Source: Nitzschia sp. pyKryTriq1 (Eukaryota > Bacillariophyta > Bacillariophyceae > Bacillariales > Bacillariaceae). From it: a stretch of DNA of 64,000 bases. The stretch lies in contig OY101121.1 in assembly GCA_956465555.1 (NCBI GenBank), positions 268,222 to 332,221 on the forward strand, in the 5' to 3' direction. A model generated the notes under the pieces. It ran no database searches, was not told the origin of the DNA, and saw nothing but the letters and a program-made list of their open reading frames with translations. This document shows, piece after piece, positions 49,781 through 59,815 of the stretch; within the stretch, counting starts at the first letter, position 1, and each line of letters opens with the position of its first letter. Made by a program: the position numbers and the translations under genes.

Positions 49781-50358
49781 TTACCTAGAGATTGAGTGTG
49801 GACATCGAGGGGTTACGTAGAACGAGGGGGTTACCTAGATTGAGTGTGGACATCGAGGGGTTACGTAGAACGAGGGGGTTACCTAGATTGAGTGTGGACA
49901 TCGAGGGGTTACGTAGAACGAGGGGGTTACCTAGATTGAGTGTCGACATCGAGGGGTTACGTAGAACGAGGGGGTTACCTAGATTGAGTGTCGACATCGA
50001 GGGGTTATGTAGAACGAGGGCGTTACCTAGATTGAGTGTGGACATCGACGGGTTACGTAGAACGAGCGGGTTACCTAGATTGAGTGTGGACATCGAGGGG
50101 TTACGTTGAATGAGGAGGTTACCTAGATTGAGTGTGGACATCGAGGGGTTACGTAGAACGAGGGGGTTACCTAGATTGAGTGTCGACATCGAGGGGTTAT
50201 GTAGAACGAGGGCGTTACCTAGATTGAGTGTGGACATCGAAGGGTTACGTAGAACGAGCGGGTTACCTAGATTGAGTGTGGACATCGAGGGGTTACGTTG
50301 AATGAGGAGGTTACCTAGATTGAGTGTGGACATCGAGGGGTTACGTAGAACGAGGGGG
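49781..50358. repeat. 48-bp minisatellite, 12 units, with a four-unit higher-order repeat
   Basis: Twelve head-to-tail units of 48 bp (the first has a 2-nt insertion) starting ttacctagattgagtg. Units start at 49781, 49831, 49879, 49927, 49975, 50023, 50071, 50119, 50167, 50215, 50263 and 50311. Shared variants show that units 5-8 and 9-12 are copies of one 192-bp block: units 5 and 9 share tat-for-tac and ggcg; 6 and 10 share gcggg; 7 and 11 share gttgaatgagg. Because 48 is divisible by three and no unit carries an in-frame stop in some frames, both strands stay open, giving 16-residue peptide repeats in each direction; these are probably not genes. Confidence 0.97.
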
Positions 50359-50437
50359 TTAAAAGGTTCGATCAAAAGGTATCCCTACCCTAGCCCGCCC
50401 AAAGAGGTTATCCCCCGAATAGCTGGAGCTTTCGTTG

Positions 50438-51030
50438 ACGCGATAGCGATAGTAATAGACATTATTTTATTTTTATCCACGCGATAGCGCTAGTAATAGA
50501 CATTGTTGTACATTCGAGCACGCGATAGCGCTAGTAATAGACATTATTTTATTTTTATCCACGCGATAGCGGTAGTAATGGACATTGTTGTACATTCATT
50601 GACGCCATAGCGGTAGTAATAGACATTGTTGTACATTCATTGACGCCATAGCGCTAGTAATAGACATTGTTGTACATTCGAGCACGCGATAGCGGTAGTA
50701 ATAGACATTGTTGTACATTCATTCGCGCGATAGCGCTAGTAATATACATTATTGTACATTCATTCGCGCGATAGCGGTAGTAATAGCCATTATTTTACAT
50801 CCCAGCACGCGATAGCGCTACTAATAGACATTATTTCATTTTCATTCACGCGATAGCGCTAGTAATTGACATTATTTTATATTCGAGCAAACGATAGTGC
50901 TAGTAGTAATAGACATTATTTTATTTCCATTCACTCGATAGTGATAGTAATAGCCATTGTTTTATATTCGAGCACGCTATCGCTAGTAATCGACATTATT
51001 TTATATCTTAGCACGCGATAGCGCTATGAA
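50438..51030. repeat. About 15 copies of a 41-bp AT-rich minisatellite
   Basis: Units start near 50438, 50479, 50520, 50561, 50601, 50642, 50683, 50726, 50767, 50807, 50848, 50890, 50933, 50971 and 51013. The consensus is a conserved core (cgcgatagcgctagtaatag, with the palindrome tagcgcta) followed by an AT-rich acattattttattttt or acattgttgtacattc variant. The two AT-rich variants are interspersed. It is separated from the 48-bp array by about 80 nt and shares no sequence with it. Confidence 0.95.
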
Positions 51031-51264
51031 TAGTAAGTTGGCTTCTTTCATGAACACGAATGATCCAGTTCTGAAGGACAGTCCATAGTCATGAAATTTG
51101 GCGGGAGATCATGCCGGCTCGAAAAATCTGGATACAAAAAATCCCGCCCCCCGCCCGATCGCGATGATCGAAGAAGCAAAAGCGGCAAAGCAGCCAGATT
51201 TTGTGTCATTTTCACAACATCAGAACATATCAACACCGACATCAACACCAACGTACCTTCCATC

Positions 51265-53871: not shown

Positions 53872-55141
53872 ATGTCTCACGACGAGGAGGATCCGCAGTG
53901 GGTGCAACAACAACAACAACAACAACAAATCCATAATTCACTGCTCAATTGTATGGGTGCACTTTTGCTAATACCACAAGAAGGCCACCGGCAGGATCAA
54001 ACGGAGTTGTTGTGGGTGGAAGAAGCCTGCGAGATTCTGGAACGTGCATCTTCCACAGTTGACTCTTGCCTTTCAATTGACTGAAGATAACGAGAAATAT
54101 CCGCGTTTGGCAAGTCTTGTGGCACAAGTGATCCAGCAAGACCTGGAACGAATACAAGTTCTGCAAGAAGAACAAGAACAAGAACAACCACAACAAGAAT
54201 CGTCGTCGGTATTCGACAATACTCGAAGCAGTACCTGGGAAGGACGCAAACAAATCGTATCGGGGATCATGGCATTGGCGGCTCGAGTGCGACCGTGGTC
54301 GTCGTCCAGTGGAAATAATGCCGACAGCCAAGAAAACAAGAACAGTCCAGCAGCGCTCTCGCTTTTGGATTTGGTCCAAGCCGCCATTTCGTTGGATTAT
54401 TGGCACGCCGCCGTATTGCTCTGCCAAAATGCAGCTGATCGTGATGATGCGGACTCCTCCTCGAACCGTAAAAATAATGACGACCATGTCACGCGGGCGG
54501 TCGAATTCCTGGTGGATACCGCATTGGAAGAAGGTACCAACTGTAAGGATGATTCCCTGGCTACCAATCTGTACAGCTGTGGGGGTCGATCACGATTTGT
54601 CATGGCTCGAATTCAGCATGCCTGTGATACCATTTCTCAGGTCGTATACAAACGTCAATTGCCCATTATTGAACGCCAGGTGAATCAGGTCGACAGGGCA
54701 GTGGAAAAAGTCAAACAAGACAATACAAGTACTACTGCTACTGCTACTGCTACTGCTACTGATACATCCAACCCCGTGTCTACTATTACTACTACTACTA
54801 CTACTGCTACTCTTGAGGAGGAAGCGCTGCCAGATGCCTCTCAAGAAATTCGAATCTTTGTCTTGATGCGACTCGAGGAGGCGGGAGAACACGATGCAGC
54901 ACATCGATTGGCTACCCTGTGGAATATGGATTATGTTTACGATGAAGAAGCGATGTTAGCAATAAAACGAATGTGGTCAGGAAGGTCGGAGTCCCTTGTG
55001 CTCAAGGCGCTGGCCCCCCAACATCATGATGGAACCGTGCCCTGGAGGGTCTACCCGTGGGCCAAATGGGGGGAATATGAGGTATGTACTGAGGATACGA
55101 AGCGTATCACCGATCATCGGCGTTGTTGGTGTTTGCATTAA
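53872..55141 (+). pseudogene. Decayed helical gene, copy 1, with a DUF3105 fragment fused at its 3' end
   Basis: A frame opens at 53872 (MSHDEEDPQWV...) and reads ELLWVEEACEILERASST, then stops at 54084; a different frame carries on from about 54047 (LPQLTLAFQLTEDNEKYP) through an alpha-helical region to about 54965 (LMRLEEAGEHDAAHRLATLWNMDYVYDEEAML). So a frameshift or unrecognised splice lies near 54050. Instead of the continuation seen in copy 2 (59540), the frame then enters LAPQHHDGTVPWRVYPWAKWGEYE at about 55010-55080, matching the exon 1 end of the DUF3105 gene, including its splice donor context. The original protein is not recognised with confidence; see copy 2 for a possible exonuclease. 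It could still be transcribed. Confidence 0.6.
54998..55085 (+). pseudogene. Diverged fragment of a DUF3105/TP53I13-like exon
   Basis: The phrases LxPQxH, GTV and WAKWGEYE|gta occur in the same order and frame as in the intact gene (51650-51789), with about 45 nt missing between them. At DNA level gtgggccaaatgggggga continues to tatgaggta in both. A downstream cgacacag at about 55206-55213 could be a matching acceptor, but the sequence after it does not continue as FLPPERW. Confidence 0.65.
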
Positions 55142-55429: not shown

Positions 55430-58205
55430 TTAGAAAGTAAAGTCAATATACTTGCTTTGTTCAGCTGAGAAATGATTCCTGAAACGGTACGGGAGGCTGA
55501 CGTTGCCTCCGTGCTTGCCAATGTCATTGGACAACTTGTAGGCCCTACCAAACAATATAGTATCAGCATCATAGGGCCCGTTCTTTTGATGCAACTTATT
55601 ATACATTGAATGCAGCTTCTTGCGAAGTAGATCGAGTGTATAAAGCCGTTGCCTGTCCGACAAATACTGCTGAGCCGTGGAAAGCCACTGGCATTCCACC
55701 TTTTTGGTGTAGGCAGAAACCCAGGCCAAATCTCTCCACCCAAGAAGCTTGTGCTCCTTCACATATTCGACTACAACATCATTGTTCGCATGGTCCAATT
55801 TTTCCGGTTCCAACTCGTTGGCTGGACGCCACTCTTTGTCGCCATCATCGTACTGGACCAATAGCTCCGCCGGTCCACCACTCCTCTTTTTGTGCCCGCA
55901 AACATTGATGATTTCCGCATCTCGAAGCTGAGTCTTCAGCCACTTCCAGCCCTCCATCTCAAGCAAGTTGTTTTTCTTGGCATAATTGAACAGCATGCCG
56001 GGGATCTCCGTTTTTTTTTCGGAGAGCCAATGGAACTTTTCTTCTCCCGAATATGATCTCAGTAGGACCATCGTTTTGATGCCCTCCCCTTTGTGGGATA
56101 CGACAGCTTCAATGTCTACAACTTTTTCCAGCAAATCCGATTTCCCAATTTTGATGGAAATGGTTTCCAGCTGGGGCGTCGTACGCTGACATAAATATTG
56201 GTCTTCGCCAATATTTTCATGCACGACCCACTCCACCTTGTTGTCATCAAGGTAGGAGCTGCCCAGAATTGCATCATTGCAATCTGGGACAAACTCTGTC
56301 GGTGCACTCACCTTGTCAACAAACGTGGGGTTTATTTCGCGTAGGATGCCTTCATCCCACGCGACCAAGTAAAGATCCCCGTCCAGATCCCCATTTGCGA
56401 TGGACTCGGGGATCGAAATTTCTCCTTCACGTTTTGGCCCTCCGAAAACAAGAAAACCAAATGGAAGCTCCTGCAGGAGCTTCCAATTGTCCTCTCTCAT
56501 ATTGGTTGGCTTGCTGGTAATTGCACCCAGCACTTTGCCGTCTCCGGGCTCTGTCGCCGGGTTCCGAGTAACAAAAACTTGTCGTTCCAAGCCAGATTGG
56601 CATTTCGCATACACCCCGAGGCCACTAAGGAAAACTTTTTCCACGTGGAATGGTTCCCGTCATATCAGCGACTCCAACAATGTAGGAGTGGCTGCAGTTG
56701 ATCATGCTTTGGGAAACACTAGCATTGTAATATTGCAAAGTGTCCAAAGAGACCCCCAGTCCAAGGAGAACGTTTATGGCCATGGGGGGCAAGCCGACCA
56801 AGTCACGTTGAAAACTTTGTGGCGGAGACTTGTCAATATTGGGGTTGTAAAGCCTCTCAAGATTGCGGTTATGCTCCGAGGGGAACAACTGGATCATCAA
56901 AATTGATCCTTTCCCATAGAGCTTGTGATCTCTTGGGAGTTTCTTTGAGGATTCTGGCACTTTTTTCATCGATCCAGGAAACTCAATCTTGCTGATTGCA
57001 TTTTTTACAACCAACATTCCTTTGAAGATGCCGAGAGAAGGTACCACACATCGGACTTGGCAGGCAAATATGCCTTCACCCACGAGTTCCTTCATTAAGG
57101 CCTTTGGGATAAAGCCGCATCCGACATTGTGCCTCTCTTCGACAAGCGAAAATTTGCCTTCTGGCAGCACAAAATGCCGATGTTGCCCCACAGGACTGGT
57201 CAAAAGCTCGAGTCGCGAAGCAACCTTCGCGGCTGGCAGACTAGCAAAGTTGCCAAGATTCTCAAGTGCAAGTTGGAGATCTCTCCGACTTGCACTAGCA
57301 ACATAGAAACCTTTCCAGAAGGTAGAAGGGAAAAACCCTTCCTTCTTGGACTTCTTCTCCAGCCGAACTGAAACCAGCTGAAACGTGGCCCCACCTTGCT
57401 TGTAGGTTTCTAAAATAGACTCTTCGGCATTTGAGAGTCTGCCTTCGAGCATTAAAACCTTTGCTGGAAACATCCAGCGAAGAAACATGAAGTCGGTTTC
57501 CAGTCGAATCACTGGAACACCATTGTCATCTGCATCAAGATCTGCAAGATATGGCGAGGTTAGGAAGTGTTTGGCCCGGATCTTGGTTGGGGTAGCATAC
57601 ACCACAACCTCGGGCTCATCATAATGTGGCTTGTTGTCGTCTTCTTCGTCTTCTTGTTCTTCACTGAACAAACCGTCACGATCCGAATTGATGGACTCGT
57701 TGTCTTCTTGTTCTTCACTGAACAAACCGTCACGGTCCGAATTGATGGACTCGTCGTCCTGCTTGCCAGCGGCAGCAGCAGCAGCAGCAGCAGCAGCAAG
57801 TGTGTCGGGGTGCTTGCCTCTTGCCATTTCTTCTGGTACGATCCCAAACTTACTGGGATCCAAACTTTCTTCGACATCACCGTCTGCATACTGAATCTAA
57901 AAACGTGTGAGTAATGGACAATATGCTACTGGATTGAACGAACTTACCTCAAAATGCTCCCATCGTCGATCCTCCTCGTGCTCCACCACGAATTTTTTCA
58001 ATATGGTCCCCCAATACCACTGCTTGTCTGCAGGGAATTGGCACCAGACCTTTTGAGCTACTATTAGTTGGGTAGTGTCTTCCCACTTTTTATTCTTCTT
58101 TTGCTCCCGCTTTTTGCTGGGCGGAGTGACAACGGCGGCAGGTTTCTTTTCATCGTCAGAGCTGGCCTCATTGCCATCTCTCTTTCGTTTGCCTTGTTCA
58201 TCCAT
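55430..58205 (-). CDS. Cellular RNA-dependent RNA polymerase with Tudor-like and chromodomain-like modules (one frameshift)
   Basis: RNA-silencing RdRP (RDR/QDE-1 type) that makes double-stranded RNA from single-stranded templates. Exon 1 58205..57948 and exon 2 from 57896 (51-nt intron gtaagt...ttttag) join HFE to IQYADGDVEESL, giving a Tudor-like domain (about residues 45-100). An acidic linker holds a duplicated SINSDRDGLFSEEQED. RdRP motifs: ADMTGTIPRGK / VFLSG, QVFVTRNPATEPGD, and the catalytic ANGDLDGDLYLVAWD at about 56350-56395, all three Asp present. After it lie two chromodomain-like stretches (56119-55957 and 55924-55738), then the usual RdRP C-terminal segment GRAYKLSNDIGKHGGNVSLP. 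The frame is broken at an A5 run (56640-56636): with A4 it reads through for about 909 residues. Hence either a recent pseudogene or an assembly error. N-terminus MDEQGKRKRD is likely a nuclear signal. Confidence 0.83.
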
Positions 58206-58602: not shown

Positions 58603-59815
58603 GATGTATGGGTACACTACTTTTGCTAATACCCGAAGAAGGTGACAATCAGGGTCAGCAGGAGTTGTTGTGGGTGGAGGAAGCCTGCGAGATTCTGGAA
58701 CGTGCATCTTCCACCACCACGTCGCCGCCGCCGCCGCCGCCATCATCAAACATCATTGGACACGAATGACAAACATTCGAATGCATCCAGCCGTCTTTGT
58801 AATTTGGCAAAAGATACCACCCGTGAGCTCTGTCAGTACAGCGACTGGTGATAATAGTCCCAGTTGTTATCTGCTGTTCCAATGCATTGGCTATATCTTT
58901 AGTATTTGGTGTCTTGGCCTTGATTCCTACTAATAAAAATACGTCGACGAAAAATAATGTCATCATCCACTCTTCAGGTGGTGCCCAAGCTGGCGCCAGT
59001 GCCTTGGCTACGACTGTTTCGTCAGTTTGGAAAAAGAAAACAATAAGCACCGAAACAAGGACGACAATATCGCCTGAATTCTCTCGCGGGCGGTCGAATT
59101 TCTGGTGGATACCGCATTGGAAGAACGTACCTAACCTACCGTCGGGACGATTCCCTGGCTACCAATCTGTACAGTTGTGGGGGTCGATCATGCTTTGTCA
59201 TGGCTCGATTTCAGCATGCCTGTGATACTATTTCTCAGGTCGTATACAAACGTCAATCGCCCATTATTGAACGGCAGGTGAATCGGTTGGACCGGGCAGT
59301 GGAAAAAGTCAAACAAGACAATACAAGTACTACTGCTACTGCTACTGCTACATCCAACCCCGTGTCTACTACTACTACTACTACTACTACTCTTGAGGAG
59401 GAAGCGCTGCCAGATGCCTCTCAAGAAATTCGAATCGTTGCCTTGATGCGACTCGAGGAGGCGGGAGAACACGATGCAGCACATCGATTGGCTACCTTGT
59501 GGAATATGGATTATGTGTACGATCAAGAAGCGATGTTAGCAGCAGCAGCGGCAAGACGAAAGAAGTATATACAATTTGACGAGGTTTTTTTCGAAGCGGC
59601 AGCGGCGGCGGCGATGATCCCAGAGCTAATCTCGAATCCCCCCAACACTCCGCGAGTCCTTTTCCGAATTCTGGAAACAGGGACCGTATCCCCGAGGGCC
59701 TTTTGGTTTGGATGCCGAATGGGAGGGCAATGTCCATAAGGAGTCGATCTGCTACAGCTATCTCATCCAAAACGCGCAATGCTATTGGAGATTCCAGCAT
59801 TGATATCTTCTTGGA
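58603..59815 (+). pseudogene. Decayed helical gene, copy 2 (possible DEDD 3'-5' exonuclease remnant)
   Basis: Two blocks match copy 1: 58606-58715 (reads MGTLLLLIPEEG ... ELLWVEEACEILERASST) and 59082-59542 (TRP-like helical region to RLATLWNMDYVYDQEAML). The DNA between them is unrelated to copy 1, and the join has stops. Copy 2 keeps the original 3' continuation: ARRKKYIQFDEVFFE...IPELISNP, then a C6 run at about 59639-59644 breaks the frame; with one C fewer it reads PTLRESFSEFWKQGPYPRGPFGLDAEWEGNV up to a stop near 59800. GLDAEW resembles the first Asp-Glu motif of WRN/Mut-7/EXD exonucleases, but the remaining catalytic motifs are not seen. The exonuclease idea is inference with low certainty; decay of the copy is clear. 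Confidence 0.55.

Follow-up and report, generated by a model that had tools for sequence, protein, structure and literature searches.

The question raised by an RNA-dependent RNA polymerase (RdRP) gene of the diatom Nitzschia sp. pyKryTriq1 is whether the amplification of small RNAs and the reading of histone marks can be united in a single polypeptide. The tie of small-RNA amplification to chromatin outside model organisms is an open question, and RNA interference (RNAi) in diatoms is little understood. The window analyzed here is a stretch of 64,000 nucleotides (assembly GCA_956465555.1, contig OY101121.1, positions 268,222 to 332,221, forward strand); in its RdRP gene an original prediction had placed two chromodomain stretches, designated A and B, behind the catalytic motif and a Tudor-like domain at the start of the protein.

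The minus-strand gene at positions 58205-55430 was confirmed as a cellular RdRP with an intact DLDGD motif, as had been predicted, with a match to the Pfam RdRP family (PF05183) in the second of the two open frames that make up exon 2 (E = 2.4e-10; 40.2 bits against a curated cut-off of 23.8). In a search with the part of the protein that follows the frameshift listed in Table 1, the DLDGD region also matched the solved plant RDR2 (7eu0/7roz; PDB sequence match, E = 7.2e-4). The part preceding the frameshift gave no Pfam RdRP match on its own, and it falls within the alignments to two sister proteins, with identities of 148/391 to the sister at C14 and 124/355 to the sister at C12. Read through the frameshift, the window protein comprises 907 residues. 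A search of the genome with the Pfam RdRP profile returned three RdRP loci, namely the window gene, C14 and C12; the local identities (the two above and 161/475) did not support ranking the window gene as the most divergent among them, and that idea was dropped. A pattern search based on the alignment of the three paralogues gave 182 matches in viral contigs and 59 in genome contigs, none of which was confirmed, and no pattern match to relatives of the C-terminal half of the window protein was obtained among the viral contigs.

Table 1. Coordinates of the window RdRP gene and of the RNAi genes at C12.
Feature	Position	Strand	Basis
Exon 1 of the window RdRP gene, 86 codons from ATG	57948..58205	minus	open frame and GTAAGT donor
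51-nt GT-AG intron of the window RdRP gene	57897..57947	minus	gtaagt...tttttag; frames joined in phase 0; predicted from sequence
Exon 2: RdRP core, insert, C-terminal segment, stop	55430..57896	minus	423- and 409-aa open frames, one-base break
N-terminal Tudor-like stretch, across the intron	57846..58067	minus	PTM_DIR17_Tudor, E = 0.028, below cut-off, weak
AAAAA run with one-base frameshift, upstream of the catalytic motif	56636..56640	minus	frame comparison
Catalytic DLDGD motif	56375..56389	minus	identical in all three RdRPs of this genome; aligns to solved RDR2
Insert, 200 codons as drawn, edges uncertain by about 15 residues either way	55721..56320	minus	absent from the C14 and C12 paralogues
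Stretch A (first proposed chromo-like stretch)	55940..56140	minus	unsupported by shuffles
Stretch B (second proposed chromo-like stretch)	55721..55939	minus	weakly supported by shuffles
C-terminal RdRP segment with KHGGNVSLP	55433..55720	minus	alignable with C14 and C12 starting at the tryptophan of WLSTAQQ
C12 RdRP	C12 1510334 to 1506899	same as Argonaute and Dicer-like frame	
Argonaute	C12, start 1520132	same as C12 RdRP	Piwi above cut-off, PAZ below
Dicer-like frame with RNase III domain	C12 1520520-1523795	same as C12 RdRP	E = 1e-12

The distance from the end of the DLDGD motif to the KHG..LP motif is 286 residues in the window protein, compared with 98 in C14, 115 in C12 and about 88 in the solved chain 7w84_A, the last figure being a hand count on the alignment. 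The predicted spacing of about 280 residues, where plant RDRs were said to have about 100, is thus upheld, and the extra sequence amounts to some 170 to 200 residues. Since the C-terminal pieces of the paralogues, aligned separately, begin at the tryptophan of WLSTAQQ, the insert was placed at the interval given in Table 1. The insert, which C14, C12 and the solved 7w84 all lack, is both real and unusual, and it shows that a cellular RdRP gene can acquire some 170 to 200 codons downstream of its catalytic motif. Its codon bias, measured against three RNAi genes of the same genome, was +0.173 in its own frame and between -0.179 and -0.402 in the other five frames. A genome search at E up to 1 found no further copy of the insert; an origin from a retrotransposon was considered, for which the genome gave a single Tf2-1-type match, lying below the cut-off.

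The combination of an RdRP and a histone-mark reader in one chain, which had been predicted for the window gene, is better represented by the sister at C12. The C12 protein comprises 1115 residues once an 88-nt GT-AG intron is removed, and its N-terminal part holds two modules with the common pattern WE(I/V)EGI...W..Y. The second module, when excised, matched Pfam Chromo at 31.7 bits (E = 1.5e-7; cut-off 25.1); the same module scored 30.9 bits in the genome search and 24.9 bits, just below the cut-off, within the whole 818-aa frame. Its best match among PDB sequences was CBX5 (E = 7.2e-5), and in the alignment with CBX5 the residues W452, W471 and Y474 occupy what are presumably the positions of the aromatic cage. 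An N-terminal chromodomain with a complete W/W/Y cage is therefore predicted with confidence for this protein. For the first module, no Pfam match was obtained and the one PDB match (E = 0.14) is not a chromodomain; against chromodomain profiles, the hhalign probability was 0.74%, and its scores were reached by 7/1000, 3/2000 and 14/2000 shuffles. Compared directly with the second module, it was equalled by 79/2000 and 21/2000 shuffles, and the shuffle counts suggest that it may be a chromodomain as well.

Across the genome, the Pfam Chromo search gave at least eight matches at five places, which were paired at C2, C6 and C10 (CHD-like by eye), with the remainder in one C8 protein and in the C12 RdRP. 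The C8 protein, of 619 residues (L012 655-2511, minus), matched at 25.4 bits when the domain was excised and at 21.3 bits as a whole, the cut-off being 25.1; a similar-looking stretch before its chromodomain was unsupported (101/1000, 119/2000 and 153/2000 shuffles).

The likeness of the insert to chromodomains was assessed with three profiles, built from eight domains of the same genome, from these with CBX5 and MPP8 added, and from the latter set without the domain of the RdRP itself; seven sequences were tried in the shuffle tests against such profiles. With the eight-domain profile, stretch B scored 7.9 bits, a value reached by 1/1000 shuffles, and stretch A scored -1.4 bits, reached by 826/1000. 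The addition of CBX5 and MPP8 brought the counts to 92/2000 for B and 468/2000 for A, and the best 14 of 299 windows across the three RdRPs all belonged to C12. After removal of the chromodomain of the RdRP, the counts were 21/2000 and 538/2000, and the windows of stretch B (4.4 bits) ranked highest outside the two C12 modules among the 299 windows of the three RdRPs. When 1071 open reading frames (ORFs) from the retrieved sequences were scanned, the B region, at 3.1 bits, was second among those that had not contributed to the profile.

Other comparisons gave less. A Pfam search at E up to 10, in which the HMMER filters drop most matches above 0.1, listed no domain in the insert as a whole or in stretch A or B taken singly, and hhalign against the eight-domain profile returned probabilities of 0.76% for stretch B (E = 0.073) and 0.08% for stretch A. 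Stretch B matched no PDB sequence, and a two-row profile of A and B gave four PDB matches (best E = 0.051), none of them a chromodomain protein. Pairwise alignment of stretch B with the C12 modules was not significant (134 and 476, 284 and 826 of 2000 shuffles). In the low-confidence alignment that places stretch B, a tyrosine stands where the cage has its tryptophan, the third cage position coincides with a gap and the first lies outside the alignment, so that the cage for methyl-lysine looks incomplete. When the first 127 residues of the insert were compared with its last 73, the score was reached by 632/2000, 680/2000 and 107/2000 shuffles; these two halves, like stretches A and B (369/2000 and 64/2000 shuffles; BLASTP E = 0.24), appear at best weakly alike as repeats of each other. 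From the profile, hhalign, shuffle, pairwise and cage results, it follows that stretch B is weakly chromo-like, that stretch A is unsupported and that nothing in the insert points to methyl-lysine reading; of the two chromodomain stretches originally proposed, the second is retained in this weak form and the first is not.

The surroundings of the C12 gene bear on its possible role. The chromodomain-RdRP, Argonaute and Dicer-like genes are located on one strand within 17 kb (C12 about 1506.9-1523.8 kb), with at least two plus-strand frames between the RdRP and the Argonaute, one for a DAGAT-family acyltransferase and one with an EF-hand match. Profile searches of the genome yielded three RdRP, two Piwi and three RNase III loci, and a triple of these within 17 kb arose in 13/2,000,000 random placements, a test in which contig ends were ignored and the 17 kb span was chosen after the cluster had been seen. 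No diatom case of clustered RNAi genes appears in the available portions of the literature matches listed. Near this cluster, at about 1496.6-1500.6 kb, there is also a frame for an SNF2-type ATPase.

The explanation favored here, to which a probability of about 0.45 is assigned, is a joint one: the window gene, possibly broken, is one of three RdRPs and carries a docking insert of the barrel type, and the link between chromatin and siRNA is made by the C12 sister. Behind the catalytic DLDGD region and ahead of its C-terminal segment, the window RdRP would have gained the additional residues, and these would most likely fold as one or more small barrel-type modules, of which stretch B would be chromo-like. 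As no complete aromatic cage is in sight, docking of a protein or nucleic acid is a likelier role for the insert than the reading of methyl-lysine. The connection between chromatin and siRNA amplification would more plausibly be made by the C12 RdRP than by the window gene, the former being, on its predicted domains, the better-supported candidate for a chromatin-tethered siRNA amplifier. Its chromodomain may bind methylated H3 tails, where the polymerase would copy nascent transcripts into double-stranded RNA, which could then pass to the Dicer-like and Argonaute proteins encoded nearby. A single C12 polypeptide with both chromodomain and RdRP, encoded near Dicer-like and Argonaute genes, offers a directly testable shortcut from histone marks to siRNA production.

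A broader proposal, which is tentative and more doubtful than probable, is that diatom RdRPs have repeatedly been fitted with barrels of the chromatin-reader type, placing the jobs of the fission yeast RITS and RDRC complexes in single polypeptides, one of them encoded in the compact neighborhood with the Dicer-like and Argonaute genes. This would span the N-terminal chromodomains of C12, the KOW/Tudor-like repeats of C14 and the chromo-like insert of the window protein. The C14 RdRP (L005 798-4397) is a single uninterrupted frame of 1199 residues without the insert, and it begins with three repeats of KOW-like appearance that resemble one another (0, 0 and 3 of 2000 shuffles in pairwise tests); the whole protein matched KOW at E = 0.13, below the cut-off, and for two of the repeats taken alone Pfam listed nothing at E up to 0.05. 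At the N-terminus of the window protein, where a Tudor-like start had been predicted, the best and single named Tudor match does lie at the expected place and is weak (14.6 bits against a cut-off of 27.2), and a DUF6763 match is nominally better (E = 0.013) and likewise below the cut-off. This N-terminal stretch does not resemble the C14 repeats (578, 1317 and 1730 of 2000 shuffles), and no likeness was obtained when it was aligned with the insert. A search of NCBIfam gave nothing useful.

On another view, regarded as rather unlikely, the C-terminal region of the RdRP underwent a lineage-specific expansion, and the resulting insert has a fold of its own that is unrelated to chromodomains. This view would accord with the lack of a Pfam match, with PDB matches that include no chromodomain, with the low hhalign probability for stretch B and with the length of the site, which varies between C14 and C12 too; on the other side stand the windows of stretch B, which are the best outside the C12 modules with one profile, and the second rank of the B region among non-training ORFs with another.

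The state of the window gene introduces a further alternative. Its reading frame in this assembly is broken once, by one extra A in the AAAAA run (Table 1), and since this frameshift lies upstream of the catalytic motif, the gene as assembled cannot make the whole enzyme. Two candidate GT...AG introns over the frameshift were checked by hand and rejected, as neither restores the frame. A DNA search of the assembly with positions 56400-56900 found no second copy of this segment; apart from the segment itself, the search returned a 32-base match that lies within it on the opposite strand. The window gene is thus possibly a broken third paralogue, and it has been considered that the frameshift is real, the enzyme dead and the insert unselected or mildly constrained, a reading that is compatible with the other views of what the insert formerly was. 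The position of the frameshift ahead of the catalytic motif, and that of the gene between two direct repeats of neighboring sequence, would fit such decay. However, a single lesion was seen in about 2.5 kb, DLDGD is intact, the frames are open on both sides of the break, both the insert and the core behind the break show coding bias, and one surplus base in a run of A can also be an assembly error; decay is regarded as unlikely.

The direct repeats flanking the RdRP gene, at window positions 53961-54961 and 58619-59541, are 88-97% identical block by block, and the region that they form contains open frames; the segment 53972-55138 beside the gene gave no Pfam match at E up to 0.05. Tandem arrays with periods of 48 and 41 bases occupy positions 50000-51033, the first of which may start before 50000, where the search began. 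The genome also contains eight matches to silicon transporters, a mark of diatoms, four of them within about 42 kb (C1 275839-317295) and a fifth at C1 79892.

That the insert consists of a pair of genuine chromodomains, reading histone marks and anchoring the polymerase to chromatin, is quite improbable, as the success of stretch B against most shuffles and the real chromodomain of a sister RdRP are opposed by the failure of stretch A (468/2000 at best), by the absence of a Pfam match for the insert and of a chromodomain among its PDB matches, and by the incomplete cage in the single low-confidence alignment that places B.

Among diatoms, three RdRPs have been described for Thalassiosira pseudonana (PMC3155517), and a review lists two for this species and one for Phaeodactylum tricornutum (PMC3145265); the accessible parts of these two papers report no chromodomain in the RdRPs of either species. 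The accessible parts of PMC3145265, PMC4247016, PMC3155517, PMC10080066, PMC11910954 and PMC6396948 do not mention a fusion of chromodomain and RdRP, nor do the titles and opening lines of the abstracts among the literature matches listed, and the C12 architecture may have been described already. Within the cellular RdRP family (PF05183; plant RDR2 7eu0/7roz, and 7w84), the window gene aligns at the DLDGD region and the C14 sister at both DLDGD and the C-terminal K(H/T)G..P segment, and the window gene differs by its additional residues between the two. In comparison with chromodomains of the HP1/CBX type, aromatic residues occupy the cage positions where C12, around residues 452-474, aligns to CBX5, whereas stretch B, in its low-confidence alignment, has at most one of the three cage aromatics and stretch A does not score. 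The closest functional parallel is provided by fission yeast, in which a single silencing loop employs both a chromodomain and an RdRP through RITS (Ago1-Chp1-Tas3) and RDRC (Rdp1-Hrr1-Cid12), with the chromodomain of Chp1 in the former, the polymerase Rdp1 in the latter and the two complexes interacting through Ago1 (PMC3380556). Whereas these are separate proteins in separate complexes, the diatom gene at C12 is predicted to encode chromodomain and RdRP in one chain.
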